The notes under the pieces were generated by a model, which was not told where the DNA came from, searched no databases, and was given only the letters and a program-made list of their open reading frames with translations. The position numbers were made by a program, and so were the translations under genes. Positions 9,909-29,471 of a stretch of DNA of 43,336 bases are shown piece after piece; positions within the stretch are counted from its first letter, which is position 1; each line of letters starts with the position of its first letter. This DNA is from a virus: positions 1 to 43,336 of IMG/VR virus record IMGVR_UViG_3300042402_007381; one strand, 5' to 3'.

Positions 9909-10826
9909 ATGTCTCATTCTATATCATGGTCCGACGGGCTACTTGATTATAAACAGCACACTATAACTATAGCTGCTAATCTTATCGCTTATAATTGTCA
10001 TTTACAAGATAAAAGTTTATCACCAGACAATTTTGATGAGTCATTTCGACAAATTTTAGAAAAGTTTGTTTTTTCTAAAATAGAATTATTGTATAGTGGT
10101 GGGCTGGATAGCGAATTCGTATTGGTTAGTTTAAAAAATTTCGGTTATCCTGTTGTTGCTGTTACAATGAAACTTATGTGTAGAGGATATCCTATTAATA
10201 CACATGATTTGTATTACAGTGAAAAATTCTGTAGACAAAATAACATAGAGCAGAGATTTATAGAATTAGATATTGAAAAATTTTTTGAAAGTGGTCGTTA
10301 TCAAGATTATCTATTAGACTACTATATTCAGCAACCTCATGTGGCCACACATTTTTGGATGTTTGAGCAATGTGATAATTTTCCTATTTTGGCAGGCGAA
10401 TATAGTTGGCCCTGGGTCGATGAACCTATTTTAAGCCCACATAGATTAGAGTATAGCTGCTATGACAGATTTCTTGCTGATAATTCTATAAATGGTATCG
10501 GCAATCTTTTAAATTACAGTTACAACATAAACAGATCACTGATCAGTGCTCATATAGAATTATATAAACAAAATTTCATTTTAAACGACAGAACTTTGCC
10601 TATATTCAAAAAAAATCTCTATCAAAAACTCAGCAATTATACCTTTGAAGTCCGTATGCGAAATTCGGGCTGGGAAAATCTTCCTAAATCTGTTTTCAAC
10701 AAAAGTCAATATCGAGTTGAGTTAATTCGGCAACACAACAAAATCAGCAAAAGTGCTATATCATGGAATTTGGGTATAGCAAAACTATTAAATGGAAATA
10801 TCTACAGCAATGACCGATATAGTTAA
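9909..10826 (+). CDS. Asparagine-synthase-like PP-loop ATPase, copy A
   Basis: 305 residues. The PP-loop SGGLDS (residues 63-68) marks an N-type ATP pyrophosphatase fold as in the synthetase domain of asparagine synthase, but the N-terminal glutaminase domain is absent, so it would need another nitrogen donor or would simply adenylate its substrate. It is similar in length and layout to the protein at 11965-12882 (same 305 residues, same SGGxDSE followed by a Val-Thr strand and an acidic DIxxF block), so the two are paralogues. It is the first gene of a + strand operon with a methyltransferase and GNAT. Substrate unknown. Confidence 0.7.
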   Translation: MSHSISWSDGLLDYKQHTITIAANLIAYNCHLQDKSLSPDNFDESFRQILEKFVFSKIELLYSGGLDSEFVLVSLKNFGYPVVAVTMKLMCRGYPINTHDLYYSEKFCRQNNIEQRFIELDIEKFFESGRYQDYLLDYYIQQPHVATHFWMFEQCDNFPILAGEYSWPWVDEPILSPHRLEYSCYDRFLADNSINGIGNLLNYSYNINRSLISAHIELYKQNFILNDRTLPIFKKNLYQKLSNYTFEVRMRNSGWENLPKSVFNKSQYRVELIRQHNKISKSAISWNLGIAKLLNGNIYSNDRYS

Positions 10827-11367
10827 TTTCAATGCCGATAGTTTCAGCCATGGACAAATATTAAGTAAAATATGGTTATGCCAAACAATAGAACCTTATC
10901 TTCAAGATCGGCGTAGTCTCGCTATCTTAGGCTGTTGGTATAATGCTTTGGGATTTATTCTCAGAGCGCGTGGTAACATTCATAGAATAACAGGTTATGA
11001 CTTAGATGCCACTGCAATATCAACGGCTGATCGCATCTGTGACAGTTGGTGTTTGGACGGATCTATTAGTCATAATATAGCCGATGTTAATAAAGTCGAT
11101 CTCACCCCATTTGATGTAGTGATTAACACCAGTAGTGAACATATGAGCTCGGACTGGTTTGATTATGTCAAATCTGGAACATTAGTTTGTGTACAAAGCA
11201 GCGACATTGTTGATTCTGGGCCTCCTTGGCTGATCTCTAATCCTTCGCCCTCTTTTGAAGATTTTTTGGACAAATATCCTATGAGTTCCGAGTTGTTCAC
11301 CGGCCAAAAATTTTTTGATTATGTCACATTATCCTATAATAGATTTATGATATTAGGAATTAAGTAA
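10810..11367 (+). CDS. Class I SAM-dependent methyltransferase-like protein
   Basis: About 185 residues from the ATG at 10810 (an ATG at 10792 is possible; 10810 has GGAAAT upstream). AILGCWYNALGFIL is motif I, GYDLDATA is the ribose-binding acidic strand, and FDVVINTSSEHM is the motif IV region. It overlaps the PP-loop gene by 17 bases. A phage-type methyltransferase of unknown target; a place in the same modification route as its neighbours is inference. Confidence 0.65.
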   Translation: MTDIVNFNADSFSHGQILSKIWLCQTIEPYLQDRRSLAILGCWYNALGFILRARGNIHRITGYDLDATAISTADRICDSWCLDGSISHNIADVNKVDLTPFDVVINTSSEHMSSDWFDYVKSGTLVCVQSSDIVDSGPPWLISNPSPSFEDFLDKYPMSSELFTGQKFFDYVTLSYNRFMILGIK

Positions 11368-11376
11368 TTAAGTAAC

Positions 11377-11913
11377 ATGGTTTATGAAATTCATTCATCT
11401 GATGATTCACCTAGGGGAATCGAGCTGTTATATTCAGTGTTCTCTGCAATAGATCCCAACGAGCCATACTACAATAACTATTCACCGCAATGCCAAAATA
11501 TAATGGGCAATTTTTGGCAAATTCTCAATGCAGGTAGATATCTCAATGGATGCTACTATGTATTAGAGATTGACAACGAATATGTCTGTAGTGCCGGATG
11601 GAATGCCTATACTGAAGATACAGCAATTTTGTTAAGTAGAGCATTTGTTTTGCCAAAATATCGTGCAACATATCCATTGGCCAAACATATACTTCCTAGA
11701 ATTTTAGAAAATACTCAGAGATTTCCACATCAATGGATTTGCTGCAATGACTATAATCGAGCCATTTATGATTTCTTTGAGCGTGCATACAACAAGCGAA
11801 GCACCGCTCTTTACAGTAATTGGCCAAGTATCTATAAAAAATTTATACCAATCGGCCGCCGAAATATATACAATACTGAACAATTGGTAGCTGAGTATAA
11901 TGTTGACCACTGA
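11377..11913 (+). CDS. GNAT-family N-acyltransferase
   Basis: 178 residues. Beta strands YYVLEIDNEYVCSAGW and TAILLSRAFVLPKYR, then the helix with the CoA-contact region (RATYPLAKHILP), and a C-terminal ICCNDYNRAIYDFFERAY, the Asn/Tyr-containing end typical of GNAT. It lies between PP-loop copies A and B. It probably acylates an amine; the substrate is unknown. Confidence 0.65.
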   Translation: MVYEIHSSDDSPRGIELLYSVFSAIDPNEPYYNNYSPQCQNIMGNFWQILNAGRYLNGCYYVLEIDNEYVCSAGWNAYTEDTAILLSRAFVLPKYRATYPLAKHILPRILENTQRFPHQWICCNDYNRAIYDFFERAYNKRSTALYSNWPSIYKKFIPIGRRNIYNTEQLVAEYNVDH

Positions 11914-11964
11914 TTTCCTTAGAGATAGTCTCACTATCTATGCGTTATTCAACCAAAAATTTCT

Positions 11965-12882
11965 ATGAATTTCACAGACAAAAATCATCTATCATACAGT
12001 ATTGGAGATAGAAAGTACGGATTTAGGGAATCAGTTATTGATAAATTTACTGTCGAAGTAGGCAAAATAGATCCTCAACATTATGCTAAAACTAATTTTG
12101 AAACTGAATTACAGAGAACAGCTGATTTAGTTTATAGAGAGTTTGGCAATGATTTTATTTTATTACTAAGCGGCGGTACAGACAGTGAAATTGTAGCACA
12201 CAATTTCCTTAGTATCGGTATAAAGCCGTACTGTGTCACAGCAAGATTCGTAGGAGATTATAATCTCACCGATGTCGAAGAAGCTAAGAGAATAACCAAA
12301 GAGCTAGATCTCAAACACGATATAATTGATTTTGATATCCGTGAGTTTTATTATTCTGGTCAAGCCAGCGAGTTTGGCAGTGGAATTCAATGTACACAGA
12401 TTACTTACAATATGTGTTATTTTCTTTTGAATCGATTACAGAGCGCGGGTGTAATGGGCGGAGAAGCATTGCTGACCAGAAATGTCACAAAAAATGATAG
12501 CTATTGGTATTGGACATTTCGTGAAAACGAAGATGCTAGTGCTATGAGATTTGCAATTAAATACAATCTACCATTGGTCAATGAATGGTTTAGTTATACT
12601 CCTGAACTATTACTGTGTTATCTTGAAGATACAGAAATCGTCAAATTAGTCACTGAGAAATATAATTACAAACTGACCAGTGTCAGCAGTAAAAATCGAA
12701 TATTGAAAAGACTTTGTCCTTATGTAACTGAGAAACGCAAAACTCATGGTTTTGAAAATTTACTAGCATTTAATCATCAAAGCTATCGTGACACGGCCAG
12801 TCTGGTATTACCAAGACTTGAACCAAGTCTTGATGGTATTAAGTATGAAGAAGTGATTCAACAACTTAGAGGTATAGAATAA
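11965..12882 (+). CDS. Asparagine-synthase-like PP-loop ATPase, copy B
   Basis: 305 residues with SGGTDS at residues 69-74, followed by conserved strands (CVTARF) and IIDFDIREFYYSG. No glutaminase domain. It is a paralogue of copy A (9909). Its stop overlaps the ATG of the next GNAT gene (TAATG), so they are translationally coupled. Together with copy A and its GNAT this looks like a duplicated ATPase + GNAT module. Confidence 0.7.
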   Translation: MNFTDKNHLSYSIGDRKYGFRESVIDKFTVEVGKIDPQHYAKTNFETELQRTADLVYREFGNDFILLLSGGTDSEIVAHNFLSIGIKPYCVTARFVGDYNLTDVEEAKRITKELDLKHDIIDFDIREFYYSGQASEFGSGIQCTQITYNMCYFLLNRLQSAGVMGGEALLTRNVTKNDSYWYWTFRENEDASAMRFAIKYNLPLVNEWFSYTPELLLCYLEDTEIVKLVTEKYNYKLTSVSSKNRILKRLCPYVTEKRKTHGFENLLAFNHQSYRDTASLVLPRLEPSLDGIKYEEVIQQLRGIE

Positions 12883-13481
12883 TGCAGATTAGAAAACTTG
12901 ATTATCAGGATAGAAACATCTGTCAAGGTTTATTCATGAACCAAAAATACATGGGCGGACATGATATATCTGGATTTTATCGAAGTCCTACAGCAAATCA
13001 TGATCAAAATACTCAGTATTATCACAATTTCTGTAATGCTTATCTAGCAGATTTGAAGAACTATGTTGCATTTGGTGCATTCGAAAATAATGAAATCGTC
13101 GGCATAATTAGTGCTTACAAAAGCATTGATGAACCAAGTTGGTATGGCACTCAAATTCGCAGCAACGACGGTAGAACTGTGGTTCGGGCACTGCTGGATC
13201 AAATGATTGACCACATGGAATCTGAAGGTCGTTTGAAATTTTATACACTATGGAATGTGAAAAATTCACGACTTCTTCGCAGATTTGCTTTCAATAAGCG
13301 CACCAATGAACGTTATGATTATTTTGATGAATATCTTGTGCCAGAAAAACACAAGTGCTTGTACACTCAGCATTGGCATGTACTATTCAACCGTGTATTG
13401 TTACCAGTGGAAACTGTAGTTCGATGCACCTTTCTAAAACAAAAATATCGTGAACAGTTGCCGATTGGCGGAAATATCTAG
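12882..13481 (+). CDS. GNAT-like acyltransferase, coupled to PP-loop copy B
   Basis: 199 residues. The core YVAFGAFENNEIVGIISAYKS (about residues 61-80) and the later RTVVRALLDQMIDHME helix and FYTLWNVKNSRLLRRFAF end follow the GNAT order. It is less typical than the 11377 GNAT but of similar size. It ends two bases from the convergent SDR gene. Substrate unknown. Confidence 0.6.
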   Translation: MQIRKLDYQDRNICQGLFMNQKYMGGHDISGFYRSPTANHDQNTQYYHNFCNAYLADLKNYVAFGAFENNEIVGIISAYKSIDEPSWYGTQIRSNDGRTVVRALLDQMIDHMESEGRLKFYTLWNVKNSRLLRRFAFNKRTNERYDYFDEYLVPEKHKCLYTQHWHVLFNRVLLPVETVVRCTFLKQKYREQLPIGGNI

Positions 13482-13482
13482 A

Positions 13483-14136
13483 TTATTTAGAAAGAAAGTG
13501 ATTGTTCATAGTGATTCTAGATATGTTGATATATCTCGGTTGTGCTAGAATCCATTCAATGGTTTTAGCGATATCTATGGGTTTTATCGGCGTAAAATCA
13601 TTGAAGTTATAGTTAGTATATCTCGACTCACTTACCGGACGTTTCGTAAACTCATTGAAATCTGTCGGCATTACAATGTCTGGTTCTAGCGTTGTTACCC
13701 TGATATCTCTAGTTCTACTTCTACTGAGACAGATACAGAAATTACTGATTGCATTTTTACTGTTATTATAATTTATGCGGTCTTGAGTGATGTTTTTATG
13801 GCCGTTGGACATCAGGGCTGCAATCGAGGATATGTTGATTATAACGCTGCCGGCATCCAATGAATTATAGAATCTTGAAATCAAATCTGCAGCGGCAACA
13901 TAATTCAGTTCAAGTGTTTCAGTAACAGAGTTGGATATCTTTCCAGCGCAAATAACAACAATGTCGGGTTTATAATCTTTTATTAGTAAATCTCGAAAAT
14001 CAGACTTACAGATATCACCGAGAACATCTGCGTTGGTTCTTGCCAAGGTAGTCACAGAATATTTTTCTGAAAAATATTCTGCACATACTTTACCTATGCC
14101 TTTACTTGCCCCGACTATCAACATTTTTTTATTCAT
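13483..14136 (-). CDS. Short-chain dehydrogenase/reductase
   Basis: 217 residues of the classical SDR type: GASKGIG (residues 9-15) for cofactor, a CAG motif in place of NAG, ISSIA with the catalytic Ser, and YNNSK (Tyr-x3-Lys) after an insertion. An oxidoreductase for a hydroxyl/keto group; substrate unknown. It is transcribed against its neighbours from a late promoter that ends five bases before the ATG and touches, back to back, the promoter of the 14163 gene. Confidence 0.8.
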   Translation of the reverse strand: MNKKMLIVGASKGIGKVCAEYFSEKYSVTTLARTNADVLGDICKSDFRDLLIKDYKPDIVVICAGKISNSVTETLELNYVAAADLISRFYNSLDAGSVIINISSIAALMSNGHKNITQDRINYNNSKNAISNFCICLSRSRTRDIRVTTLEPDIVMPTDFNEFTKRPVSESRYTNYNFNDFTPIKPIDIAKTIEWILAQPRYINISRITMNNHFLSK

Positions 14137-14162: not shown

Positions 14163-14699
14163 ATGAACATTTTGTTGGATAATATTAGATTTGAAAAATA
14201 CACTTGGCTGAGGATCCCAGACACAACAAATCGACTACTGTTTAGAAATTGCTTTCAACATCGTTTTTCTAAAATAGACAGTATTAGTGTTGTTCTTAGC
14301 AGCTTTGAACAACAAATAGAAGAAAACAATAAATATTTGTCCAATCAAGAGGAGTTTACATTTTTTTGTTATCTTCGTGGTTTAGTGACTGATGCAGAAT
14401 TATTGTTTGGCAAAGTTAGTCTTTGGCGCATTTCTGGGCATAGTCAAGTAAAATATCATAGAGATAACTATGCATATCATAGTTATATAGACAGATACGT
14501 CTATAATATAAACATGCTAAATTCACAGACTGATTTTCTCTCAGAAAAAAATAAGATTGAATCTGAACCAGGCTCTATAATAAAGTTCGATCATAAAAAG
14601 TTTCATTCTGTAAAAAATAATAGTGATGTTGATGTTTATTTTTTAACATTCGATTTAGTCAAACAAAACTTTATTTCATTATTATCGGAGCAATTATAA
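14163..14699 (+). CDS. Putative Fe(II)/2-oxoglutarate oxygenase (Asp/Asn hydroxylase-like) 1
   Basis: 178 residues. H99-R-D101 gives the facial-triad HxD, followed by a YNINML strand and a distal H148 in KKFHSVKNNSD. The SVKN beta-turn after the last His is typical of aspartyl/asparaginyl beta-hydroxylase-like proteins; a clear 2OG-binding Arg is not obvious. It lies directly before the desaturase gene, whose ATG follows its stop without a gap. Confidence 0.6.
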   Translation: MNILLDNIRFEKYTWLRIPDTTNRLLFRNCFQHRFSKIDSISVVLSSFEQQIEENNKYLSNQEEFTFFCYLRGLVTDAELLFGKVSLWRISGHSQVKYHRDNYAYHSYIDRYVYNINMLNSQTDFLSEKNKIESEPGSIIKFDHKKFHSVKNNSDVDVYFLTFDLVKQNFISLLSEQL

Positions 14700-15503
14700 A
14701 TGTTCACAAACATTTCTAAATACAGTTATTTCAGTTTTATACCTAGTATGTTGTTTGGCGCACTGACAATACTATTATTCATCAATGAAACTTTACCACT
14801 GTATTATCTACTTTTTACGTTGATTGGATGGATTATGATCAGTGGCATGGGGGTGGCAGTCGGATATCATCGAGTGTTTAGCCATAATACTCATACCAAT
14901 CTAAAATCCTGGCTAGAAAATATACTATTATTTTGTGGGGCACTCAGTGGGCAAGGTTCTAGCATCACTTGGACTGCAATACATCGTGGATATCATCATA
15001 GACACAGTGATACTAATCGTGATCTTCATAGTCCAATTCACGGTATCTATCATGCGTTCTTTGGTTGGACTACGAAAATTACTGAGAACAATCCTGGTAT
15101 TAGTCTTAGATATGCCGGTAATCTATTGAGAAAATCAAATCATCAGTGGTTCCATCGTAATCATTTGAAGATACAGTATTTGACACCGTTGATTATTGCT
15201 GTATTTGATTGGAAACTTGCACTAGCACTGATCTGTTTGCCGACTGCACTGAGTTTGATTCAGGATAATACAGTGAACATCGTCGGACACAGAAAGAGTT
15301 TGATTGGTTATCGTAATTTTGACACACGAGATAACTCACAAAATAATTGCATTCTGGGTTATCTTGCATGGGGTCAAGGTTGGCATAATAATCATCATCA
15401 CGACCCGGGTTCTTTTGATTTTGGCACTGATATCAGTAACAAATTCTGGGAGTACGATCCCTGCAGAATATTTCTTCCATTGTTAAATATAGGCAGTAAA
15501 TGA
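14700..15503 (+). CDS. Membrane fatty-acid desaturase (acyl-CoA/lipid delta-9 type) 1
   Basis: 267 residues with the three histidine boxes of di-iron desaturases: HRVFSH, HRGYHHRH and GWHNNHHHDP, and four hydrophobic segments. It inserts a double bond in acyl chains in the cytoplasmic membrane with O2 and an electron donor. The last box and the FDTRDNS stretch are shared with the second desaturase at 36806. Lipid desaturases are known from cyanophages; here the gene is in the oxygenase island and coupled (ATGA) to an unknown gene downstream. Confidence 0.85.
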   Translation: MFTNISKYSYFSFIPSMLFGALTILLFINETLPLYYLLFTLIGWIMISGMGVAVGYHRVFSHNTHTNLKSWLENILLFCGALSGQGSSITWTAIHRGYHHRHSDTNRDLHSPIHGIYHAFFGWTTKITENNPGISLRYAGNLLRKSNHQWFHRNHLKIQYLTPLIIAVFDWKLALALICLPTALSLIQDNTVNIVGHRKSLIGYRNFDTRDNSQNNCILGYLAWGQGWHNNHHHDPGSFDFGTDISNKFWEYDPCRIFLPLLNIGSK

Positions 15504-16078
15504 TGTTAGTATCTGCAATAAATTTTGTAACACAAGACCACCGGGATCTTGAAATCTTAATCGAGCCTGACGATATTGACCAATATGCTGTGAGATATCT
15601 ATGGATTCAGCATCGCACACATAACACAGAATTTGTTGAGAATTATTTCTCCGGAGGAAACAACCGCGGGCTTAATGTCAGAACACGCACACAACATCTT
15701 GGCGATACATGGCGTAATCATAATAAAGTATTTGATGAAAGTGCAGAAAACGGAAATTTAGTTTGGCGAGTCAAGGCCTACAATCGCCTAAGTCAAAGCA
15801 TTGATTACATTGAAATATGGCGTAGCAGAGAGATTTTATCAGACATTTTTGATCGTACCGCAACATTGTCGGACGGCAGCAAATGGACAGACAATGAAAA
15901 AACAGATCTTGGGCGTGGAATATATGACAGTGGCTTTGATGTAAGGCATATGCGGCCCTTCCGTGGTATATCTAAAAAACTTGCACTTGATTATTACTGG
16001 CATTTTGTTGAACGGCATAAAGCCAAAGATAATTGCATAATTAACACACGATATAATCCCGAATTAAACCCTGTATGA
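15500..16078 (+). CDS. Unknown protein, 192 residues
   Basis: It starts within the desaturase stop (ATGATG) and ends overlapping the next gene by 4 bases (ATGA), so it is clearly translated as part of the operon. No motif is recognised; it is rich in Arg, Asp and Asn, with no signal peptide or membrane helix. A segment with WRVKAYNRL and IEIWRSREIL may be a beta-rich core. It could be a partner of the desaturase or the oxygenase that follows. Confidence 0.55.
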   Translation: MMLVSAINFVTQDHRDLEILIEPDDIDQYAVRYLWIQHRTHNTEFVENYFSGGNNRGLNVRTRTQHLGDTWRNHNKVFDESAENGNLVWRVKAYNRLSQSIDYIEIWRSREILSDIFDRTATLSDGSKWTDNEKTDLGRGIYDSGFDVRHMRPFRGISKKLALDYYWHFVERHKAKDNCIINTRYNPELNPV

Positions 16079-16596
16079 ATCATAAATTTCACTGTAAGCG
16101 TATAGGAAATTTACATCCCGACACTTTGTTCAAACTTTCCCACAATATTGTAAATTTAAATTATGAAGTCTGTAGAGATTTTCCTGCTAGTATTATTCAA
16201 GTCAGTGACAAATTAGACAGTGAGTTATTAGATCTTGTTAAAATGGATTTATCATCACTGATAAAAATAAAATACGATGCGGTTACAAATATTGCTCGAA
16301 TGAGTCCAAAGAGTTACTTGGCCGAGCACAATGATCTATCGACATATTCCAGTAATGCCAATCGTCTCAGAGAAATTATTAAATTGCAAATTCCTATTAT
16401 AACAAATGATAAGGTTTTTATGATGTGGAAATATTCACAATCACAAACACAAGTTGAGCATTTAGAAGTCGGTGGAGTTTATGTAATCAATAATCTTATC
16501 AGACATTCAGTCGTAAATGGCGGCACAGAATATCGATACAATCTCACTGTGAGATATGCCATTGATGCCATAGTTGATCAATCTATTATAGACTGA
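16075..16596 (+). CDS. Putative aspartyl/asparaginyl beta-hydroxylase-like protein 2
   Basis: 173 residues. H85-N-D87 (AEHNDLS), LQIPIITND, then VEHLEVGGVYVINN, H144 (RHSVVNGG) and R154: the order and spacing of the Asp/Asn hydroxylase cupin core. These enzymes hydroxylate Asp or Asn side chains with Fe(II) and 2-oxoglutarate. Its 3' end overlaps the convergent radical SAM gene by 11 bases. Confidence 0.7.
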   Translation: MNHKFHCKRIGNLHPDTLFKLSHNIVNLNYEVCRDFPASIIQVSDKLDSELLDLVKMDLSSLIKIKYDAVTNIARMSPKSYLAEHNDLSTYSSNANRLREIIKLQIPIITNDKVFMMWKYSQSQTQVEHLEVGGVYVINNLIRHSVVNGGTEYRYNLTVRYAIDAIVDQSIID

Positions 16597-18046
16597 TAAG
16601 TTTTTGTTTATAACTGTCTATAAATTTTTGTTGATCGGCGGTTATTTTAGACCAATCAAGGGTTGAGGCCAAAGTATTATTAAGCTCATATTTTGTCAAT
16701 CCGGTATTCATTAGACTAAGAGCTTTCCATGAAGTAACTTTCATTTTGTTGCGACCATGTCTATTTAAACTCTTAGACAGCAAGTCGGCAACTTGACGCG
16801 ACATAATTTTTGTGCGCCATTCTCGTGTTGTTTCGTCATAGGTAAAACCGTATTTCTCGGGATTTCGGTCAAGGTCACTATTCATTAAACGGAACCCCGG
16901 GGTAATCAACAATGATTTGAATACCCACGAATGAAAATTATTTTCCATAAGGAAGTCCAATGTTGAGTAATAATCCTGTATTTTTTCTGGCGGTAAACCC
17001 ACAATGAAACTGGTATGAAAAGTCACATCATTTTTCCAAAGATCCAATAGCTCTAATAAAAATTCTCGACCTTGTTTTCCGCTCCAGCCTTTGCCCATTA
17101 ATCTACTGGCCTCTGGATGAAAACTTTCAATACCAAAAAAACCACTCATCAGACCTGAGTCACGAAGTAATTCTGCATGTCCTAGATTTCTATGCAGCAG
17201 ATCTGCTCTCAGGTATGCAGTAAAATTAAGTTTAAAGTTTAATTTTTGTGTAATATCATACCAACCCTTGACTTTATAATCACTGTCATTGAATGTGTCA
17301 TCTAGTATATAATAGTTTGTTGTGTTAAATGTCTGATAGTTGTATTCTAATTCTTCCTGGATATATTCAAACTGTCTAAGATAATCAAATTTAGTTTTAC
17401 CTATATGCGGATATTGACAAAAAGCACATTTAAAAATACACCCACGACTGATTTCAATGGGTAGTGTTTCTCCAGGAATAATGCAGTCTTGTTCTAAAAA
17501 TTTATGTCGTAGATGTTCAATTTTAAAATTCAAGTTCTGTGCAGCATTAACAAAAGGTCTATTACCTCTATATACTGAATGGAAAATGCTGCGCGACTTT
17601 TTCCATGACTGCAGAATTTCTAAAAACGAATCTTCTGCATCACCGGTCAGACTCATATCAAATAGTTGATAATCTTCTGTTTCAATAAAATCTGCTGAAT
17701 GACCACCTAATACTATTTTTAGTTTGGGATATTGATCTCTAATTTCTTTAATTGCCTGTCTAATGTTGTCGGGTACAGTGATAGCTTTGTACCTTGACAT
17801 GGGAGTCAAAGTATTTTTTGGATTTAATTCACTCCAGAAAGTAGAACTAACACCTATACATAAGGTGTCTGATGTCACAAACTTTTTAGTAATCTTGACA
17901 AGATCTTCTGCGGTCATATGATGTACAAAATCAATTACTTGACAACTAAAATCATTTTGCCGTAGCCACCATGCCAGTTGATACGGCCCGATTGCTCGAT
18001 AATTAATTTTTAAATCAAACACTCCAGTCCAAAATATCACATTCAT
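16586..18046 (-). CDS. B12-binding-type radical SAM enzyme 1
   Basis: 486 residues. An N-terminal Rossmann-like domain (residues 1-150, IVLGGHSADF and the TGDAEDSF turn as in cobalamin radical SAM proteins; the DxHxxG cobalamin motif is not evident), then RGCIFKCAFC with C203, C207, C210 for the [4Fe-4S]-SAM cluster, and a SPASM-less C-terminus. Members do methyl transfers or rearrangements. It overlaps by 4 bases the oxygenase-like gene 18043-18783 upstream, so the two are co-translated. Confidence 0.8.
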   Translation of the reverse strand: MNVIFWTGVFDLKINYRAIGPYQLAWWLRQNDFSCQVIDFVHHMTAEDLVKITKKFVTSDTLCIGVSSTFWSELNPKNTLTPMSRYKAITVPDNIRQAIKEIRDQYPKLKIVLGGHSADFIETEDYQLFDMSLTGDAEDSFLEILQSWKKSRSIFHSVYRGNRPFVNAAQNLNFKIEHLRHKFLEQDCIIPGETLPIEISRGCIFKCAFCQYPHIGKTKFDYLRQFEYIQEELEYNYQTFNTTNYYILDDTFNDSDYKVKGWYDITQKLNFKLNFTAYLRADLLHRNLGHAELLRDSGLMSGFFGIESFHPEASRLMGKGWSGKQGREFLLELLDLWKNDVTFHTSFIVGLPPEKIQDYYSTLDFLMENNFHSWVFKSLLITPGFRLMNSDLDRNPEKYGFTYDETTREWRTKIMSRQVADLLSKSLNRHGRNKMKVTSWKALSLMNTGLTKYELNNTLASTLDWSKITADQQKFIDSYKQKLISL

Positions 18047-21192: not shown

Positions 21193-22073
21193 AACTTTTT
21201 TCTTTAATTTTTTTGCTAGTCTTTTCAAAAAGTATTTTTGCTGCTCAGACCATACAAGTTCACTGGCCATTTTCTGTTGCAAGCACCCAGGCCAATATGA
21301 TCAGAGCTTTGCTTTCTGAGGCAAATGCTCAACAAACTGATTACAAATTTGTGTTTGCACACAAACCCGGTGCCGGTGGTTCCATTGCAGCAAACAGTTC
21401 TTTGTCTGGTGGCTCGAGTATTTTGATCAGTACTAGCAGTTTTTATATTCGGCCATTGCTGTATTCAGACAGTCATGATGTCAATAAATTCAATCTTGTT
21501 GAAGTAGTTTGTAACGATCAGCCATTGGCTGTGTTTAGTACAAAGTATTCTACAATTGATGAACTACGGTCAAGATCAGTCACCGTGGGTGTTATCCCGG
21601 GATCTATTACTAATCTAGTAACACGAAGATTTGTGTTGAATAATCTTCAGATATCTGAGGTATTCTATAAAGGAACCCCAGAAGCTACCGCCGATGTTCT
21701 TGGTGCACACATAGATCTTAGTATTGACTTCCTTGGTGAGAGAAGAATTACAGAAAATTCTCGCATTAAGATCATTGGTATTACTGGCAGTAAATCATTT
21801 GGGAATTATCGAACTTTGGCCTCGCAGAATATCACTGGTACTGAGTCAATAACCAATAGTTATTTCATTTTTCTAGACAAGAATGCCGACTCGGCGCTTT
21901 TACAAAAACTTCGTGAAATATTTTCAAGATCTAAAACTACTACAAAAGTTCAAGAATTTTGTCAAAAAGATTATGGCAGTCAGAAAAGTTATTCAGATTC
22001 GGAACTAACGATCTTAAATGAAACTAATAAGACATTTTGGAAAATTGCAACAAGCGGTGTGATAGTAAAATAA
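21189..22073 (+). CDS. TctC/Bug-family periplasmic binding protein 1
   Basis: 294 residues, GTG start inside the stop of copy C. Signal peptide MKLFSLIFLLVFSKSIFA, then the family's KPGAGGSIAAN motif, and strands and helices of the two-lobed Bug fold. Such proteins bind small carboxylates or related compounds in the periplasm for TctAB transporters. There is no TctA or TctB gene in the window, so the protein may use a host transporter or act as a scavenger or sensor. Confidence 0.8.
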   Translation: MKLFSLIFLLVFSKSIFAAQTIQVHWPFSVASTQANMIRALLSEANAQQTDYKFVFAHKPGAGGSIAANSSLSGGSSILISTSSFYIRPLLYSDSHDVNKFNLVEVVCNDQPLAVFSTKYSTIDELRSRSVTVGVIPGSITNLVTRRFVLNNLQISEVFYKGTPEATADVLGAHIDLSIDFLGERRITENSRIKIIGITGSKSFGNYRTLASQNITGTESITNSYFIFLDKNADSALLQKLREIFSRSKTTTKVQEFCQKDYGSQKSYSDSELTILNETNKTFWKIATSGVIVK

Positions 22074-22107: not shown

Positions 22108-23067
22108 ATGAAAAAGATATCAATCACTTGGGTTATCGCACACGAGCCGGCATATCTATTTTATAGAGTAGCAGAAGACTTCAAAAATATCGTGAATGAC
22201 TACTGCAAAGATTATGAAATCGTCGCGAATATCTACACTGATCTAGAGTATAACTCAAAATTTAATCCCGATACTAAAGTAGATCGACACAATCTAAGTG
22301 ATTTTTTAAAGAGCAATGAAATTCAAATTGCTCAAATGCAGACTTCAAGTCTGGCCAGAAAATCAAATCCCGAAATGAATATACTTGATCTTCCGTATTT
22401 GTTTACTGATCATAAACATGCTGAACGAGTGTTAGATGGGGAAGTGGGCGACAAATTACTCAATTCTTTTACAGACCATAGCAGTCTGCGTGGATTAGCA
22501 TTTACATATAGTGGTGGATTTAGACTTATGCCGTTTGCTTTAGATATTACTGAACTAAGTCAAGCACATGGTTCGAATATCAGAAGTGGAAGAAGTCCTA
22601 TTGCTCAGACAAACATTTCTGCCTTGGGGTTTACTCCGATACCCACAGAAATTGATGAAGTCACTGATGCCGTAGTGAAACAACATGTCATTGGAGCTGA
22701 GCATGTTGCTCAAAGATTGTTTCCAGACAATTGCGAATCTTGGATCAAAACAATCATTGATACAGAACACAGCTTATTTTTAACAAGCATCGTGGTGAAT
22801 AAGCAATGGTTTTCTATTTTACCGCAGGAAGTTCAGACTGCATTTTTACAAGCTGCCAAAAAAGCAGCAGCAAATGAAAGAAAACTTAGCATCAAAGACG
22901 GTCTGGAAAGTCTAGAAAAAATGAAATCTGCTGGAGTAAAGATTATTAGATTGACCAGTGAGGAGAAACAAAAGCTAAAATCAAAGACTCAAAAAGTCTA
23001 TGTTCAGTACGATTCAATTATAGATAAAGATCTATTACAGAAAATCAGTTCGGAGGCATCGAAATGA
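22108..23067 (+). CDS. TRAP DctP-type substrate-binding protein, no signal peptide
   Basis: 319 residues. LDLPYLFTDHKHAERVLDGE is the family's central block, and the C-terminal helices (LPQEVQTAFLQAAKKAA) also fit DctP. DctP proteins are periplasmic receptors for carboxylates, but here the sequence starts at once with the first strand (MKKISITWVIAHEPAYLFYR) and no signal peptide is visible, so it should stay in the cytoplasm. That suggests a binding or enzymatic role in the pathway of the island. Coupled (ATGA) to the 103-residue gene. Confidence 0.7.
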   Translation: MKKISITWVIAHEPAYLFYRVAEDFKNIVNDYCKDYEIVANIYTDLEYNSKFNPDTKVDRHNLSDFLKSNEIQIAQMQTSSLARKSNPEMNILDLPYLFTDHKHAERVLDGEVGDKLLNSFTDHSSLRGLAFTYSGGFRLMPFALDITELSQAHGSNIRSGRSPIAQTNISALGFTPIPTEIDEVTDAVVKQHVIGAEHVAQRLFPDNCESWIKTIIDTEHSLFLTSIVVNKQWFSILPQEVQTAFLQAAKKAAANERKLSIKDGLESLEKMKSAGVKIIRLTSEEKQKLKSKTQKVYVQYDSIIDKDLLQKISSEASK

Positions 23068-23375
23068 ACACTATAACTATAACTTCTGTTTCTGTCAGAC
23101 CTAGTACCGACGTTGTGTGGTTTTTTGAGCATGAAATTTCCGCAGGAAACTCTTTTTATCAAAACTACATTAAAGAAACATTGATTGATGCTAATCTTCT
23201 AAAGCAATCTAGAAGTTATAGTGATAATGGTCTTGTAATGACCACTGTGAATGAACTAACAGATGAAGGATTTAACATTTGGTTTAATGATCCGGTTATT
23301 ATTACTGCACGAGATGAAATGCTAGTTTATAATACACAAAATAATATTATATTGAATTCAATAGAAATAACTTAA
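23064..23375 (+). CDS. Small hypothetical protein, 103 residues
   Basis: Coupled to the DctP gene (overlap of 4 bases) and ending three bases from a convergent oxygenase gene. A beta strand, TDVVWFFEHE, helices and more strands: the length and pattern would suit a dimeric alpha/beta (ABM-like) domain. No catalytic motif seen. Confidence 0.5.
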   Translation: MNTITITSVSVRPSTDVVWFFEHEISAGNSFYQNYIKETLIDANLLKQSRSYSDNGLVMTTVNELTDEGFNIWFNDPVIITARDEMLVYNTQNNIILNSIEIT

Positions 23376-23378: not shown

Positions 23379-23972
23379 CTACTGAAATAAGTGATTGTAT
23401 TTGCCCTGAAACTCATGATATGTTATATCATGAAAGCTAAGAGTAAAAATCAACCTCATGTTTTCAATGTTCTCGATACTATGAGCTTGTCTTACGCTAA
23501 GTGCATACCAAGAATTCATTTTTAGATGATAAATTTTATCGATAGATAAATCTTCGTATTTGTATATTTTACCAGTACCTTCTCCGGCGATGTTATGATC
23601 AAGAGTGTTGTAAGTGACAGTTGTTACATACTCTCCTCCTTCTCTAAGGTAATAATTCAAAGCAAAAATTCTGACTCGATCTGTGTGTGGTGGCCAGCAC
23701 GCAAATTTTTCAAATCCTATGTTTCTTATGATACCCAAAGATGCTTGGAATTTTTCATTAAAAAAAAATTTATACTCGTTTTGGGCTAACTGATTTAGCT
23801 CCTCATCATCCTCTATAAATTTTCTGCTCACAGAATTCCTCTGAAAATTTTGTATGTAATCGTGTTTTCTTTTCAGTGCAAGTTCTAGATCTATGTCTGG
23901 CACACTTAGCATTCTTTCGATTTTTTCAAGTATTTTCTGACTTGGCGACGGAAGATATATTTCTCTGATCAT
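23379..23972 (-). CDS. Putative Fe(II)/2OG oxygenase 6
   Basis: 197 residues. H96-T-D98 (PPHTDRVR), NYYLREGGEYVTT strands, H164 (RQAHSIEN) and R173. N-terminal 90 residues are helical. Overlaps the PP-loop copy D gene by 4 bases and completes the operon TctC, PP-loop, oxygenase. Confidence 0.65.
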   Translation of the reverse strand: MIREIYLPSPSQKILEKIERMLSVPDIDLELALKRKHDYIQNFQRNSVSRKFIEDDEELNQLAQNEYKFFFNEKFQASLGIIRNIGFEKFACWPPHTDRVRIFALNYYLREGGEYVTTVTYNTLDHNIAGEGTGKIYKYEDLSIDKIYHLKMNSWYALSVRQAHSIENIENMRLIFTLSFHDITYHEFQGKYNHLFQ

Positions 23973-25162
23973 AGTGTTATTATCCTGGTCATCATCTCGT
24001 GAAATTTCAATGGTTTGCCAGTTGAATCTCTCTTGATATATTTGTTAGATATTCCGTGAATCATTTCGATTACTTGTCCATAATGATAATCTTTGGTCCG
24101 TTGATCAGTTAAATTTGTCTTAAAAAACCAATCACTGTGTTCTTGAAAGAAATACCCTGTAGGTTTTCCCGCCTGAAAAATTTTTGTATCCCAGTTTTTA
24201 TAAAGAATTTTCTTGAAAAAATTAGAATGCATATAATAAACATGATTTCCTCTTTTTGTTATATAATGCAATCTTGTGGCCGGTTTTTCGACATCGTTGT
24301 TTTCTATACCATGCAATATTCTTCGAAGAATAAAAATCTGTTTCATCCATAATTCAGGACAATCAATCGAATAGTAAAAGTGTTCGGTTTGTGGTATAAA
24401 TCCTTGAAAGCTATCCAGAGTGTGATTACCCCATACTCCGCTGACATCATCGAACCATACTCCGAATTTTTTAGATTTGGGGTTATAGCCAATTCTGGGT
24501 TTATCCACACCAGTTATCAGAACTGCGTTATGTTTTTCGCATAGTTCACGCATTCGTTTGGCAATCATGTGATGCCCGGCTAGGCTAGGACTGGCACCAA
24601 GGCCCCCGACTGGCAGTTTGTGCAGACTGTTGCTCATAATAAGATCAATGCTGGCATTGCTATGATCTAGTACTGTTATCTTTGTGCTGGGACTTTTTAT
24701 TTTTACTTCATCTAATTTAGGAATAGCAGCCTCAGAATATTCAAAAATCAAATTACAAGCACGACGATCATTTTTATCAAAAGTTGATTTAAGTTTTTCG
24801 ATGACCTGAGTCGGATAGGATGTAATGATTTCATCCAAATGAATTCTATTATCTAGAAACACATCGATAATGTTTGAGCTATCTGCACCGCCGCTAAAAG
24901 CAATAACTAAATAATCGTATTTTTCTCTTAGTTGCAATGCACGTTTTTTATAGAGTTCTTCAAGTCCCTGAATCGGCTCATGCCATGATAAACTATTGTA
25001 AAAATCATCAAAAAAATGATAGCGCACTTCACTATTGTCATTCAGACTGGCAAATCGTAGACACTCTGCTTTGTTAAAAAAAAGATACTGGTCATCAACT
25101 GACCAGTATCCACTGTTTGTAATTTTTGCAAAATCTAAAGCAATTTTATGATCAGTTATCAT
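23969..25162 (-). CDS. Asparagine-synthase-like PP-loop ATPase, copy D
   Basis: 397 residues, SGGADS at residues 90-95. Before it LYKKRALQLREKYDYLVIAF matches copy C's LYELRAKQIRDKHDYVVLML; GVDKP and FYYSIDCPELWMKQ match GIDKP and YYTPDLPELMVKQ. So it is a clear paralogue of copy C. No glutaminase domain. Overlaps its TctC neighbour by 4 bases and the oxygenase by 4 bases. Confidence 0.75.
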   Translation of the reverse strand: MITDHKIALDFAKITNSGYWSVDDQYLFFNKAECLRFASLNDNSEVRYHFFDDFYNSLSWHEPIQGLEELYKKRALQLREKYDYLVIAFSGGADSSNIIDVFLDNRIHLDEIITSYPTQVIEKLKSTFDKNDRRACNLIFEYSEAAIPKLDEVKIKSPSTKITVLDHSNASIDLIMSNSLHKLPVGGLGASPSLAGHHMIAKRMRELCEKHNAVLITGVDKPRIGYNPKSKKFGVWFDDVSGVWGNHTLDSFQGFIPQTEHFYYSIDCPELWMKQIFILRRILHGIENNDVEKPATRLHYITKRGNHVYYMHSNFFKKILYKNWDTKIFQAGKPTGYFFQEHSDWFFKTNLTDQRTKDYHYGQVIEMIHGISNKYIKRDSTGKPLKFHEMMTRIITL

Positions 25163-25989
25163 CTACGATATCTGGTACTCATCTCAATATATTTCTGAAG
25201 TTCTTTATCTTTAGCTTCGCCGGCAATCTGAACGGGACCTGCGCCCATCTGTTCGAGATCACGAGTCCACCCGACATTCGAAATGGCTTTATCCAAGCAT
25301 CGCCGGGCGATTTCTTTTTGTTCTGCCGATGCGGTTTTTAGTATAAAGGCCCCGTTAAATCCTACACTAGTCAAGGTAATTCCATTTGATTGATAAGGCT
25401 TATCCATACGAACTTCAAAAGTTTTATTGACAGACTGAAACTGTTTCAACCAATTCAAACCACTTGTGGCACTGATCAAGTATAAGTCAATGTCCTTATT
25501 CATTATCAGCGGCAAAGCCTTAGCATCTCCACCAGTAGATATAACTTCTACTTTGGGATTTACAGATTTGAGTTGCTCACCAATGAAGTGATGGGCAGTG
25601 CCAAAGCCGGGAACACCAATGTTTATCTTATTATTCAGAATATCTCGAAAGTTCAAATCTGTGCGGGTGGTGACCGCTAGTATCGGCGCAGCAATCAAGA
25701 TTTTATAAAGTTCAATCGGGGGATCTTTCATTGGGCTAGATGGTCCGAATAAAACCGGACTACCCATGTAAATATATGTAGGATTTTCAGATAGAAAATT
25801 CATTGCCGGCACACTTTGTCCACCAACTTTATATTCAATCTTAAAATCTGGATTGTATTTTTGTAATAGTCTTGCATATCTATCACTGGTACCACCCGGG
25901 GGGTAATCGACGATCACCCCGCATTTTTCGCCGGCTTGAGCAGATAAAATCGTCAATGCTGTTAAAGCTGTTAAAAGAGTTTTTTTCAT
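25159..25989 (-). CDS. TctC/Bug-family periplasmic binding protein 2
   Basis: 276 residues. Signal peptide MKKTLLTALTALTILSAQA, then VDYPPGGTSD, the typical Bug N-terminal motif, and a GVPGFGTAHHF loop. It is the head of the operon with PP-loop copy D and oxygenase 6. As with the copy at 21189, no TctA/TctB is present. It is only distantly similar to copy 1, so the two may recognise different ligands. Confidence 0.8.
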   Translation of the reverse strand: MKKTLLTALTALTILSAQAGEKCGVIVDYPPGGTSDRYARLLQKYNPDFKIEYKVGGQSVPAMNFLSENPTYIYMGSPVLFGPSSPMKDPPIELYKILIAAPILAVTTRTDLNFRDILNNKINIGVPGFGTAHHFIGEQLKSVNPKVEVISTGGDAKALPLIMNKDIDLYLISATSGLNWLKQFQSVNKTFEVRMDKPYQSNGITLTSVGFNGAFILKTASAEQKEIARRCLDKAISNVGWTRDLEQMGAGPVQIAGEAKDKELQKYIEMSTRYRR

Positions 25990-26017: not shown

Positions 26018-27676
26018 TTAACCACATTCATCGTTCAGATAATAAAAAGATCTAAGATCGTCGATATTATTTTCTACATATTGATAAATGCTTTTTTCAG
26101 TTCCTGAAATCTCAATTGCTATCCGTCGCGTCGTTAAAAAATATTGAAAACTTTTGTCAATTGTAGACTGTATACGATGGCGATTATCGATTATTCGAGT
26201 TTCTCTACCATGTAAATTTAATTTAGATGACAATGCAACATAGACATAAAATAAAAATATTCCAGTGAACCATTCTTTTTCCGAAAGACTCGAATTTGAT
26301 ATAACAGCTCGATCTATGGTCCAATTTCTAGATAATGATTCATTTTTGAAAACATCACTATGTCCAACAACTGTGACTCTATCTATTTTGATTTTGAACT
26401 TTTCAATATATGCAGGTTTAGCCGCTGGACTCATGGGAATTAGTTCAAACGGCAAATGATGGCCATAGAGTTTTAACTTACCTGATTCTTCAAGATTAGT
26501 GCGTAAATTATCAAGAGTTTGCCCTGGTAATCCCCAAATAAAATTTAGTCTATGCTGCCAGTTAGCGTTACTAGTAATATTATGTTTTGTTAGTAATTTC
26601 TTTATGTACTCTCTGTGAATTTCCCATGGCACCTCAGGTCTATCTATTTTTTCTAGAACATCTGTGTCTAGATCTTGAAGATCAGCCTTGAAAAACTCTG
26701 TCACTCCGGATGACAACATAAGATCAAGCAACTCAAATACCACATCTTTCTTGAGCTTGCTCCATTGAGGTGCATAGATTTTCGGACCGGTGCGCTTATT
26801 ATTCAAACGCTTTTCACACCAATATTTTACAATATGACGATCTTGCGGAGTCAATCCAACATTTGGATTAGTCCAGTAAATATAATAGATATTCCAACTA
26901 AAAAATAAATCAATTTCTTGCTGCCAATACGGTATTTCTTGGGACTTGTCTCCCCAAACTCTTACTTTATTGTGTAATCCACTGCTCCAATCACAAAAAC
27001 TACATGAATAAGGGCAGCCCTTGGTAGTTTCCCAAACCAAAACAATTTTTTTCCATGCTTGATCACCGGATAATTCTAAGTCATTTATTTTATAAACTTT
27101 TATTAGATCTGCATGTATTGTGTTGAGATGTTCTTTTATTTCTGAACTATAGGTGATAAAAGGACTCAAGTCTAAAACTTTTCTATCGTTGAACACTGTA
27201 TGCGAATAAATTTTGTTTCTAAATACTAGATTTACAAGTTCAACGTTGTGCCCGGCAATATAATCAAGTAACAACGAAAATGATTCTTCTCCGTCCCCAT
27301 AGATACAATAATCTATATATGGATGATGTCTATAAAACATGGGATTTATATGTGCATCTACTTCTGGACCACCGAGCACAATTGTCAAACTAGGAAATTT
27401 TTCTTTTATTCTTGCGGCAAGAGTCAAGATCGTTTCTCTAGACCATATATACATACTAAAACCCAATACATTGACTTTATCTCGTTCTACCTCATTTGCA
27501 AGCATTTCAAAATTATCGGGATTATCACGAAATAAAAATGTCGGATTACTCCAGACATAATCATTTTTGGAGTGGGATTGATTTTGATGAAATATTTTTA
27601 GCAGCCAGTTGACAGGATCTACATATACCAAATTTATATGTGGTCCACTGACACTTACGATTTTAATTGTTTTCAT
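26018..27676 (-). CDS. B12-binding-type radical SAM enzyme 2
   Basis: About 552 residues from ATG 27676 (an ATG at 27736 would overlap the upstream gene by 50 bases). N-terminal B12-domain-like half with LGGPEV and GDGEESF, then GCPYSCSFCDW with C221, C225 and C228 for the [4Fe-4S] cluster. The C-terminal half is longer than in the first radical SAM enzyme. It follows two oxygenase genes on the same strand and lies 28 bases before TctC 2. Confidence 0.8.
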   Translation of the reverse strand: MKTIKIVSVSGPHINLVYVDPVNWLLKIFHQNQSHSKNDYVWSNPTFLFRDNPDNFEMLANEVERDKVNVLGFSMYIWSRETILTLAARIKEKFPSLTIVLGGPEVDAHINPMFYRHHPYIDYCIYGDGEESFSLLLDYIAGHNVELVNLVFRNKIYSHTVFNDRKVLDLSPFITYSSEIKEHLNTIHADLIKVYKINDLELSGDQAWKKIVLVWETTKGCPYSCSFCDWSSGLHNKVRVWGDKSQEIPYWQQEIDLFFSWNIYYIYWTNPNVGLTPQDRHIVKYWCEKRLNNKRTGPKIYAPQWSKLKKDVVFELLDLMLSSGVTEFFKADLQDLDTDVLEKIDRPEVPWEIHREYIKKLLTKHNITSNANWQHRLNFIWGLPGQTLDNLRTNLEESGKLKLYGHHLPFELIPMSPAAKPAYIEKFKIKIDRVTVVGHSDVFKNESLSRNWTIDRAVISNSSLSEKEWFTGIFLFYVYVALSSKLNLHGRETRIIDNRHRIQSTIDKSFQYFLTTRRIAIEISGTEKSIYQYVENNIDDLRSFYYLNDECG

Positions 27677-27686: not shown

Positions 27687-28301
27687 TTACGAGGACAATT
27701 TAGAACAAGAAGTTTCAATATCAATATTTGTTTCAAATCGTAAAGTGCAGACTAATCTATATTTAGAACCACAATAAGCACTATGAGGTATGTCAGTTCG
27801 AATAATCATTGGTGAATCGAAAATTTCAACTTGATCTAGTAGATCAAGATTCCCCCCAATGACTTTGTAATAAGCAGTGATACTATTAGTACCGATTACT
27901 TCTTTATGTAGTCTGTAATCTCCGTTATACCAAAATTGTGCTGTGCCCTGACAATTTTCAACTGGGAAAACAATACTGACATGATTGATTTCGTCATCTC
28001 CAAACCAATCAACATGAAGATGTTGTGGAGAGGGTTTAAATTTTGGCCATGCTCGTTTAAATGCAAGCAAAGACTTACATTTAGGTAATCCGATTTTTGT
28101 TAATTCGTTATCGATAAAAATTTTATCACTGGCGGATAACTTTATACGTTGAATGTGAGATAATTTTGGCGAAAGATTATTGGTTTGTTCAATGGTAAGA
28201 CGACGGATTAGATCCCAACATTTCAAATCAATAGGATAGTAAAGTTGCATCTTATATTTATTTTTACCGAAGAGATGTTTGAATAAATAGGCATCAATCA
28301 T
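27687..28301 (-). CDS. Putative Fe(II)/2OG oxygenase 7
   Basis: 204 residues. H96-V-D98 (LHVDWFGDD), ENCQGTAQFW strand, IIRTDIPHS with H173, and R182. The start at 28301 has AAGG upstream. An internal ATG at 28250 lies four bases behind an AATAAATA element, and it could be the true late start. Confidence 0.65.
   Translation of the reverse strand: MIDAYLFKHLFGKNKYKMQLYYPIDLKCWDLIRRLTIEQTNNLSPKLSHIQRIKLSASDKIFIDNELTKIGLPKCKSLLAFKRAWPKFKPSPQHLHVDWFGDDEINHVSIVFPVENCQGTAQFWYNGDYRLHKEVIGTNSITAYYKVIGGNLDLLDQVEIFDSPMIIRTDIPHSAYCGSKYRLVCTLRFETNIDIETSCSKLSS
28255..28262 (-). promoter_or_regulatory. Internal AATAAATA before ATG 28250
   Basis: AATAAATA, TAAG, ATG. Inside the coding frame of oxygenase 7; it could give a shorter late product. 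Confidence 0.3.
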
Positions 28302-28319: not shown

Positions 28320-28874
28320 TTATTTCCAGTATGGTCCCCACGCCCATGTTACCAATGACCACCTTACTCCATCAGAGACCGGGCAAACTCTATGCGAGAA
28401 AAAAGCAGGAAAAACCACTATAGTGCCCTGACTGTTGGGCTGCCTAATATTAAGTATCTCTAGGTTGCCTCCTGTGTAGTCCTGGGGAGATGACAACTGT
28501 ATACTCATTGTTAATTTTCTATCAAGATTACACTGTAAGCTGGCATAATTGTCTATGTGTTTGCCAAAAAAATTAGAATTTTGATATCTTTTTAATTCGT
28601 ATGCCTCTACAAAATCTATATCAAACTGATAGTAGTCAATTATTTCTTGCCATAATGGCTGCAGAGTTTCGTGTATCCAATGGCCGTGTCCTAATAGACA
28701 TGAAGAAAAATCAGTTTGGAAAACAGTTTGATATTTATTAATATTTTTCTTAACTGTTTGACCATCTTGTGTGATTATGTTCTGACAGACTTCAACAGGT
28801 AAAAAATTCTCTTTGAGGAAAATTTTACTGGCAACATTCCATTCAACTGGAGGTTTATCCTGTATTGGTATCAT
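28320..28874 (-). CDS. Prolyl-4-hydroxylase-like 2OG-Fe(II) oxygenase 8
   Basis: 184 residues, the most typical oxygenase here. H106-I-D108 (KHIDNY), TGGNLEI strand, VFPAFFSHRV with H161, and R171 in GVRWSLVTW: the PKHD/prolyl-hydroxylase double-stranded beta-helix. It is first in the operon to radical SAM 2, directly after tRNA-Pro (minus strand). Confidence 0.85.
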   Translation of the reverse strand: MIPIQDKPPVEWNVASKIFLKENFLPVEVCQNIITQDGQTVKKNINKYQTVFQTDFSSCLLGHGHWIHETLQPLWQEIIDYYQFDIDFVEAYELKRYQNSNFFGKHIDNYASLQCNLDRKLTMSIQLSSPQDYTGGNLEILNIRQPNSQGTIVVFPAFFSHRVCPVSDGVRWSLVTWAWGPYWK

Positions 28875-28881
28875 CTAATTT

Positions 28882-28958
28882 TGGTCTCCGAGGACGGATT
28901 CGAACCGCCGTCACATGGTCCCAAACCACGGATAATGACCTGGCTATACGACTCGGAG
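28882..28958 (-). tRNA. tRNA-Pro(TGG)
   Basis: Acceptor CTCCGAG with CTCGGAG (C1-G72, typical of tRNA-Pro), anticodon loop TTTGGGA (TGG), T-arm GGCGG-TTCGAAT-CCGTC, discriminator A, CCA encoded at 28884-28882. Confidence 0.93.
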
Positions 28959-28997
28959 AATGTGTTATTTATTTCAGTATTATTGCTAAGTATAAAA

Positions 28998-29471
28998 ATG
29001 AATGATTACTTAGTTTATTTAGATTTACCGTCAATACCACAAGAACTACTAGAACCATTGAACGAGATTGTTAACAAACCTCCTAAACCAAACAGTTTGA
29101 TATCTACACAATACAAAAGCTTTCAAACTAGATTAGTCAATGATAATCTGTCTGACTGGACAAAAAACCTCTTTGACACAAACAGTTTTGTGCAATATCA
29201 AATTATAACTCAGGGTTTAGACATACACAAAGATCAGGGAAGAACTGTGGCATTTAATTATATACTTTGCGACGGTGGACCTATGGCCAGGACCTGTTTT
29301 TTTGATAATAATAAAACTTTAGTTTACCGAGAAAAAATTCAACTGCAGAAATGGCACAGAATTAAAACAGATGTTTTTCATACTGTAACTGGATTGCAAA
29401 GTTACAGAATAGCAGTCAGTGTTGATATCAAAGACTATACATGGGGATCTAATCTTCCATCCAATGCCTGA
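28998..29471 (+). CDS. Putative 2OG oxygenase 9
   Basis: 157 residues. H77-K-D79 (DIHKDQG), FNYILCDGG strand, H128 (DVFHTVTG) and R137. The frame is open further upstream only because it runs through tRNA-Pro. It ends within the convergent glycosyltransferase gene (23-base overlap). Confidence 0.6.
   Translation: MNDYLVYLDLPSIPQELLEPLNEIVNKPPKPNSLISTQYKSFQTRLVNDNLSDWTKNLFDTNSFVQYQIITQGLDIHKDQGRTVAFNYILCDGGPMARTCFFDNNKTLVYREKIQLQKWHRIKTDVFHTVTGLQSYRIAVSVDIKDYTWGSNLPSNA

Follow-up and report, generated by a model that had tools for sequence, protein, structure and literature searches.

What does a phage do with PP-loop ATPases, oxygenases, and radical S-adenosylmethionine (SAM) enzymes gathered in one island? 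We addressed this question for positions 9909 to 29471 of the IMG/VR record IMGVR_UViG_3300042402_007381; the complete 43,336-bp record, which is itself a phage fragment, is referred to here as the window. An earlier note, made from the sequence alone, had listed four PP-loop ATPases, nine oxygenase-like proteins, two radical SAM enzymes, and three solute-binding proteins, together with GNATs, a short-chain dehydrogenase (SDR), a methyltransferase, and a desaturase. We checked this inventory by open reading frames (ORFs), Pfam, NCBIfam, and motif searches, and it is confirmed, with two GNATs and with the corrections given below (Table 1). The flanks carry phage genes (dCMP deaminase, T4-type exonuclease/RNase H, QueE, and a head protein). 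More than 100 other uncultured phages have the island enzyme set with its gene order conserved, and our analysis suggests that these phages, while infecting, produce or modify a small molecule of the acyl-amide type.

Profile searches of IMG/VR gave 75 loci with a short PP-loop ATPase (family PPS) and 339 stretches with a long one (family PPL), reduced to the 78 best loci. Gene families were clustered across 110 nonredundant loci plus the window, and most of these contigs are fragments. PPS is found in 69 of the 110 loci, the desaturase in 55, TctC in 54, DctP in 32, the two GNATs in 30 and 27, and the B12 radical SAM in 23. Because the loci had been picked by their PP-loop genes, searches were also made in the reverse direction. 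A PP-loop gene lies within 5 to 6 kb of 63/80 TctC, 66/80 DctP, and 48/79 desaturase matches (43/52, 35/45, and 39/64, respectively, when redundancy is removed), and these fractions are upper estimates because the queries were taken from PP-loop-containing loci. In a control set fetched via the window's own RNase H gene and unselected for the island, 3 of 80 loci have a PP-loop gene. The difference between the reverse searches and the control is highly significant (Fisher p ≤ 5.5e-16), with co-occurrence odds ratios of ~40 to 120.

The order of the genes is also conserved. When gene order was shuffled 300 times inside each of 249 nonredundant loci, the adjacency of PPS and a following GN8 gene, observed 50 times, had a shuffled mean of 3.4 (maximum of 11 in 300). 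The corresponding values are 43 versus 5.2 for GN8 followed by the desaturase, 48 versus 9.5 for PPL followed by TctC, 33 versus 6.3 for TctC followed by DctP, and 14 versus 2.0 for the linkage of GT32 with MT14. Chance co-occurrence was rejected on the basis of these within-locus shuffles and the unselected control. The order is kept across 25 to 60% protein identity in many phages; the earlier note had proposed a search for such synteny in relatives, and the genes are not scattered singly. Two modules can be distinguished. Module A is (GT32)-MT14-2-oxoglutarate (2OG) oxygenase-GN7-PPS-GN8-desaturase, often followed by an oxygenase and TauD; its core is GNAT, short PP-loop, GNAT, and desaturase, with the methyltransferase and oxygenase often upstream. 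Module B is PPL-TctC-DctP, which stands alone in three loci (L115, L133, and L151). The window has module A at 11377 to 16596, module B at 19963 to 23067, and a second, convergent PPL-TctC pair at 23969 to 25989.

All four PP-loop proteins of the window have the SGGxDS motif, which is near-invariant in the family alignments. The PPS family retains SGGxDSE and a near-invariant C-terminal K-x-x-G-F/W-E, which we take, as a lead only, to resemble the C terminus of asparagine synthase. When the AlphaFold model of the PPL protein at 19963 was compared with PDB by Foldseek, carbapenam synthetase was the top match, followed by LarE and AsnB, all of them weak. A tblastn search of 50,697 phage records gave no match to either PP-loop family, so the island would be overlooked in cultured phages. 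Ordinary T4 functions were likewise considered; for the PP-loops, the small protein SM, the GNATs, and TctC, no informative family emerged from PHROGs or from tblastn against phages. The broad PPL alignment was too diverse for scanning genomes, and a narrower alignment was substituted; in bacterial genomes it found only four loci, one of which is a phage-like 3-kb contig in a Methylococcaceae bin. Three Bacteriovoracaceae metagenome-assembled genomes have a chromosomal long PP-loop protein (L156:9977-11056, L157:5106-6179, and L158:6928-8004), with GT32 nearby in all three and SDRe and aminotransferase-like genes nearby in two.

The three binding proteins that the earlier note had reported are all present; a signal peptide is missing from one of them, the DctP protein at 22108. 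The DctP profile matches solved receptors of tripartite ATP-independent periplasmic (TRAP) transporters (4p47, 5e-43), and its G-x-K-x-R arginine region is retained in 10 of 12 aligned copies by our own reading of the alignment. As judged by a simple hydropathy rule rather than a trained predictor, a signal peptide is absent from 84/84 distinct full-length phage DctP proteins, all of which have W[VLI][VIL]AH near the N terminus, while 141 of 153 TctC copies have a strongly hydrophobic, signal-like N terminus. DctP therefore appears to be cytosolic in these phages, and a TRAP receptor relative seems to have been turned into an intracellular part. TctC has a profile of the Bug type (7ndr, 6e-24). 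In several phages DctP is split mid-length into two adjacent ORFs of ~156 to 162 aa each (L130:11315-12270, L131:12206-13161, and L148:10525-11476). Another phage contig, IMGVR_UViG_3300025785_001096, carries TctB and TctA permease genes with a full-length tryptophan halogenase gene a short distance upstream (L394:7100-11063).

The earlier note had defined its nine oxygenases by an HxD...H...R pattern. Nine oxygenase-like proteins are indeed present, and Pfam supports four of them: two match PF05118 above the cut-off and one just below it, and the protein at 28320 is a 2OG-FeII_Oxy_3 protein. Most of the oxygenase families without Pfam backing match one another by hidden Markov model. In the new family F20 (18043), the H, D, H, and R residues are invariant in relatives down to 18% identity. 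The bare motif was rejected as evidence, since it matches 9 of 27 similar-sized proteins, two of them non-oxygenases. F20 and GT32 profiles had weak matches or none in PDB, and the same is true of the GNAT profiles. Both radical SAM proteins (16586 and 26018) have CxxxCxxC. The B12 type that had been assigned to both reaches the Pfam cut-off for the B12 domain only in the protein at 26018; NCBIfam B12 models match both below threshold. The nearest families of both are natural-product or lipid methyltransferases, all far under curated cut-offs. The desaturase retains all three His boxes.

The island had been proposed to resemble the tailoring of ribosomally synthesized and posttranslationally modified peptides (RiPPs). 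We found no curated RiPP radical SAM family for the window proteins, every NCBIfam match being subthreshold, and no recurrent short peptide among the clustered ORFs of at least 70 aa. The sole conserved small protein noticed, SM (~100 aa), is predicted to be folded, with an ABM-type ferredoxin-like fold (best E value, 2.8e-3), and was therefore dropped as a RiPP precursor. The idea of an unusual biosynthetic island thus survives in its conserved linked modules and in the further tailoring enzymes of relatives, and its RiPP form is not supported.

The closest relatives of the window are L004 and L081/L318. Nonisland genes of L004 are often 72 to 92% identical to those of the window, and island genes are mostly 39 to 63% identical, so divergence appears greater in the island than in much of the adjacent genome. 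L081/L318 retain the block made up of PPL-TctC-SM, oxygenase-PPL-TctC, and the B12 radical SAM, with most genes 45 to 58% identical. Of 15 contigs checked for the T4 capsid gene gp23, 9 have it; the remainder may be fragments or divergent. Related islands encode a Rieske oxygenase, TauD, ATP-grasp (GARS-like), cytochrome P450, cupin, nitronate monooxygenase, amidohydrolase, and acyl carrier protein (ACP), all reaching Pfam cut-offs, and a sulfotransferase-like family under the cut-off. Several phages have a desaturase-ACP-GN8 operon, which suggests that GN8 uses ACP-bound acyl groups. On IMGVR_UViG_3300027749_002876 (524,565 bp; L395 to L398), two island regions have the same flanking gene set in opposite orientation, and this 524-kb contig may be chimeric, joined from two related phages.

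Carboxylates are both the substrates that Asn-synthetase-like PP-loop enzymes adenylate and the typical ligands of TctC and DctP receptors. GNATs acylate amines, desaturases and ACP handle acyl chains, and oxygenases, radical SAMs, and methyltransferases act as decorating enzymes. Because the parts share this carboxylate and acyl-group theme, we favor, tentatively and with somewhat less than even confidence, the reading that the island is a modular phage-borne acyl-amide pathway of T4-like phages that acts on carboxylic acids and acyl groups. In module A, an amine-bearing acceptor would be N-acylated, partly with desaturated ACP-linked acyl chains, and the Asn-synthetase-like PP-loop enzyme would adenylate a carboxylate that is then converted to an amide. 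The radical SAM, SDR, and oxygenases would tailor the product, with a tailoring set that varies among phages. In module B, the exported TctC probably captures a periplasmic carboxylate, perhaps supplying a host permease, and the cytosolic DctP relative probably carries or buffers the same kind of acid. The product would be a small molecule that presumably benefits infection. A bolder version, in which a phage-specific class of modular systems combines two PP-loop ligase families with a TRAP-derived cytosolic substrate carrier to make diversified acyl-amides during infection in many uncultured T4-like and jumbo phages, is somewhat more doubtful.

Several results weigh against an acyl-amide pathway, beside the upward bias of the reverse-search fractions. 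PPL and PPS reach no curated Pfam or NCBIfam cut-off and have only subthreshold matches to QueC, MnmA, and GMPS. The top PDB matches of PPL are to CarA at E values of 5.5e-4 and 8.6e-4, the only two below 0.001, with a weak TM score of ~0.3. The window GNATs GN7 and GN8 have no Pfam match to the N-acyltransferase family PF13444. Among the 15 contigs checked, several of them fragments, the DctM permease is found in none and TctA in only one, where TctB adjoins it. Finally, no one fixed pathway is shared, since accessory genes vary greatly among phages.

The main rival, which we consider rather unlikely, is envelope remodelling, in which host lipid A, an aminolipid, or O-antigen would be altered by hydroxylation, desaturation, acylation, amidation, or glycosylation, blocking adsorption of rival phages (serotype conversion). 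It is consistent with the surface-sugar and glycosyltransferase genes that flank the island, with the linkage of GT32, a possible glycosyltransferase, to MT14, and with the GT32 and sugar-type genes near the chromosomal PPL of Bacteriovoracaceae. PF05118 includes lipid A and aminolipid hydroxylases, which counts in its favor, as does the subthreshold match of the 16586 radical SAM to a lipid B12 radical SAM family. Hypervariable islands of pelagimyophages have also been interpreted as surface-modifying (PMC7029224). However, GT32 has no Pfam match or convincing PDB match, many loci have no glycosyltransferases near PPL-TctC-DctP, and remodelling leaves unexplained the pairs of binding protein and PP-loop, the cytosolic DctP, and the P450, Rieske, halogenase, and ATP-grasp genes.

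It is improbable, and already disfavored, that a hypervariable site simply gathers unrelated single metabolic genes with no joint function. Mosaic variation among loci is extensive, and desaturases also occur alone or arrayed without PP-loops: the two loci with the nearest RNase H (L399 and L400; 95% and 81% identity) carry just one desaturase near the island site, and L282, L311, and L295 have four to seven tandem desaturase genes with no PP-loop genes nearby. Nevertheless, specific ordered adjacencies persist over deep divergence, and the odds ratios against the control are large. We give still less weight to nutrient capture, in which the binding proteins would boost organic-acid uptake in the manner of cyanophage PstS, a phage precedent (PMC3037559), and the enzymes would merely channel acids into metabolism. 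TctC is exported and one phage has TctB and TctA, but DctP has neither export signal nor DctM, and the PP-loop, radical SAM, P450, and halogenase genes are not catabolic. It is very improbable that the enzymes modify a virion or host protein, or a nucleic acid, by hydroxylation, methylation, and amidation: proteins can be substrates of Asp/Asn beta-hydroxylase-like and radical SAM families, tRNA or deazapurines are frequent targets of PP-loops, and the window has QueE and TilS-like genes, but neither a conserved substrate peptide nor a structural gene was seen to accompany the modules, and the desaturase, ACP, and binding proteins would have no role.

Table 1. Island and flanking features of the window
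Feature	Positions	Strand	Remarks
Flank: sugar epimerase-like, aminotransferase-like, and DUF4422 genes	833..3635	-	possible surface-sugar genes
PPS, short stand-alone PP-loop ATPase (SGGLDSE)	9909..10826	+	
MT14, SAM methyltransferase-like; recurrent neighbor	10792..11367	+	weak Pfam match
GN7, GNAT-like acyltransferase; in relatives often immediately upstream of PPS	11377..11913	+	
PPS, short PP-loop ATPase of module A core; SGGTDSE, C-terminal KxxGFE	11965..12882	+	
GN8, GNAT-like acyltransferase immediately downstream of PPS	12882..13481	+	
Short-chain dehydrogenase (SDR)	13483..14136	-	Pfam adh_short 8e-10
2OG oxygenase-like	14163..14699	+	PF05118 slightly under cut-off; family link
DES, membrane desaturase, three His boxes	14700..15503	+	Pfam 3.7e-13
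F54, family without assignment, recurrent beside desaturase	15500..16078	+	
2OG oxygenase-like	16075..16596	+	PF05118 above cut-off
B12-type radical SAM	16586..18046	-	nearest NCBIfam PhpK 2.7e-23 and rSAM_ladder_B12 6e-19, both far under cut-off
F20, new oxygenase-like family	18043..18783	-	invariant HxD/H/R
2OG oxygenase-like	18824..19438	+	
2OG oxygenase-like	19425..19970	+	PF05118 above cut-off
PPL, long PP-loop ATPase of module B	19963..21192	+	AF2 pLDDT 92
TctC/Bug solute-binding protein with signal peptide	21189..22073	+	under Pfam cut-off
DctP-family (TRAP) binding protein without signal peptide	22108..23067	+	Pfam PF03480 1.6e-41
SM, small ABM-like (ferredoxin-like) protein	23064..23375	+	AF2 pLDDT 95.7
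2OG oxygenase-like; in L081/L318 linked to 23969 and 25159 genes	23379..23972	-	
PPL, long PP-loop ATPase, second copy	23969..25162	-	
TctC/Bug-like binding protein with signal peptide	25159..25989	-	family link only; no Pfam match
B12 radical SAM	26018..27676	-	B12-binding above Pfam cut-off; nearest NCBIfam KedN5 2e-31, under cut-off
2OG oxygenase-like	27687..28301	-	
2OG-Fe(II) oxygenase (2OG-FeII_Oxy_3)	28320..28874	-	Pfam 5e-15
2OG oxygenase-like; start moved from 28881	28998..29471	+	
Flank: Gly_transf_sug glycosyltransferase and FkbM methyltransferase	29449..30857	-	

The start of the ORF at 28881 to 29471 was set at ~28998 because its opening codons are antisense to a tRNA-Pro. The surface-sugar genes at 833 to 3635 and 29449 to 30857 may be connected with the island. 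Just outside it, at 8913 to 9578, is a TilS-like PP-loop protein that is apparently shorter than usual. Farther along the window, positions 32694 to 34019 hold a proline-rich repetitive ORF with a KPEP repeat and a repeated TALRPTPRGPDRLPEPPSYATSNYPPQP unit at a local G+C peak of 0.46, and positions 38003 to 38449 encode a small outer-membrane-barrel-like protein with a signal peptide.

If the island is an acyl-amide pathway, lytic phages carry and reshuffle natural-product-like pathways of their own, beyond copied host metabolic genes. They would then be a source of new enzymes and molecules, and the question would arise of which small molecule the infected cell needs or excretes. The seemingly cytosolic TRAP-receptor relative, encoded beside a PP-loop ATPase, is in its own right an oddity that lends itself to a clean test.

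The modules were not found described in open-license literature, where absence is weak evidence; one apparent tctC match there proved to be a primer sequence. Individual genes have precedents in the hypervariable islands of T4-like cyanophages and pelagimyophages (PMC3037559, PMC7029224), in which 2OG oxygenases, ACP, TauD, tryptophan halogenase, PstS, and desaturase are known singly; cyanophages also have ACP synthetase and Asn beta-hydroxylases as individual genes (PMC3037559). In contrast, no description of the conserved PP-loop/GNAT/desaturase and PP-loop/TctC/DctP modules was found for those islands. Aminolipid and N-acyl amino acid pathways (OlsB, OlsE, and GNAT synthases; PMC11631085) likewise combine a GNAT, ACP, a desaturase-like di-iron enzyme, hydroxylases, and a methyltransferase. 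However, the phage GNATs are not PF13444 proteins, no OlsA-type gene was recognized among the annotated families, and the PP-loop and binding proteins have no counterpart in those pathways. The phage TctC resembles the TctC/Bug receptor of TTT transporters in its signal peptide and Bug-type profile, but its gene adjoins a PP-loop ATPase and permease genes are usually absent. The phage DctP matches the TRAP receptor profile (PF03480) over most of its length, unlike which it has no signal peptide, no DctM partner, and sometimes two ORFs. Finally, the phage PP-loop proteins share with Asn-synthetase/carbapenam-synthetase amide synthetases the PP-loop motif, an ATP-pyrophosphatase core, and a C-terminal extension (the best fold matches, all weak, include 1q15/1q19 and 1ct9), but they have neither the N-terminal glutaminase domain nor a curated match and are instead paired with binding proteins and GNATs.

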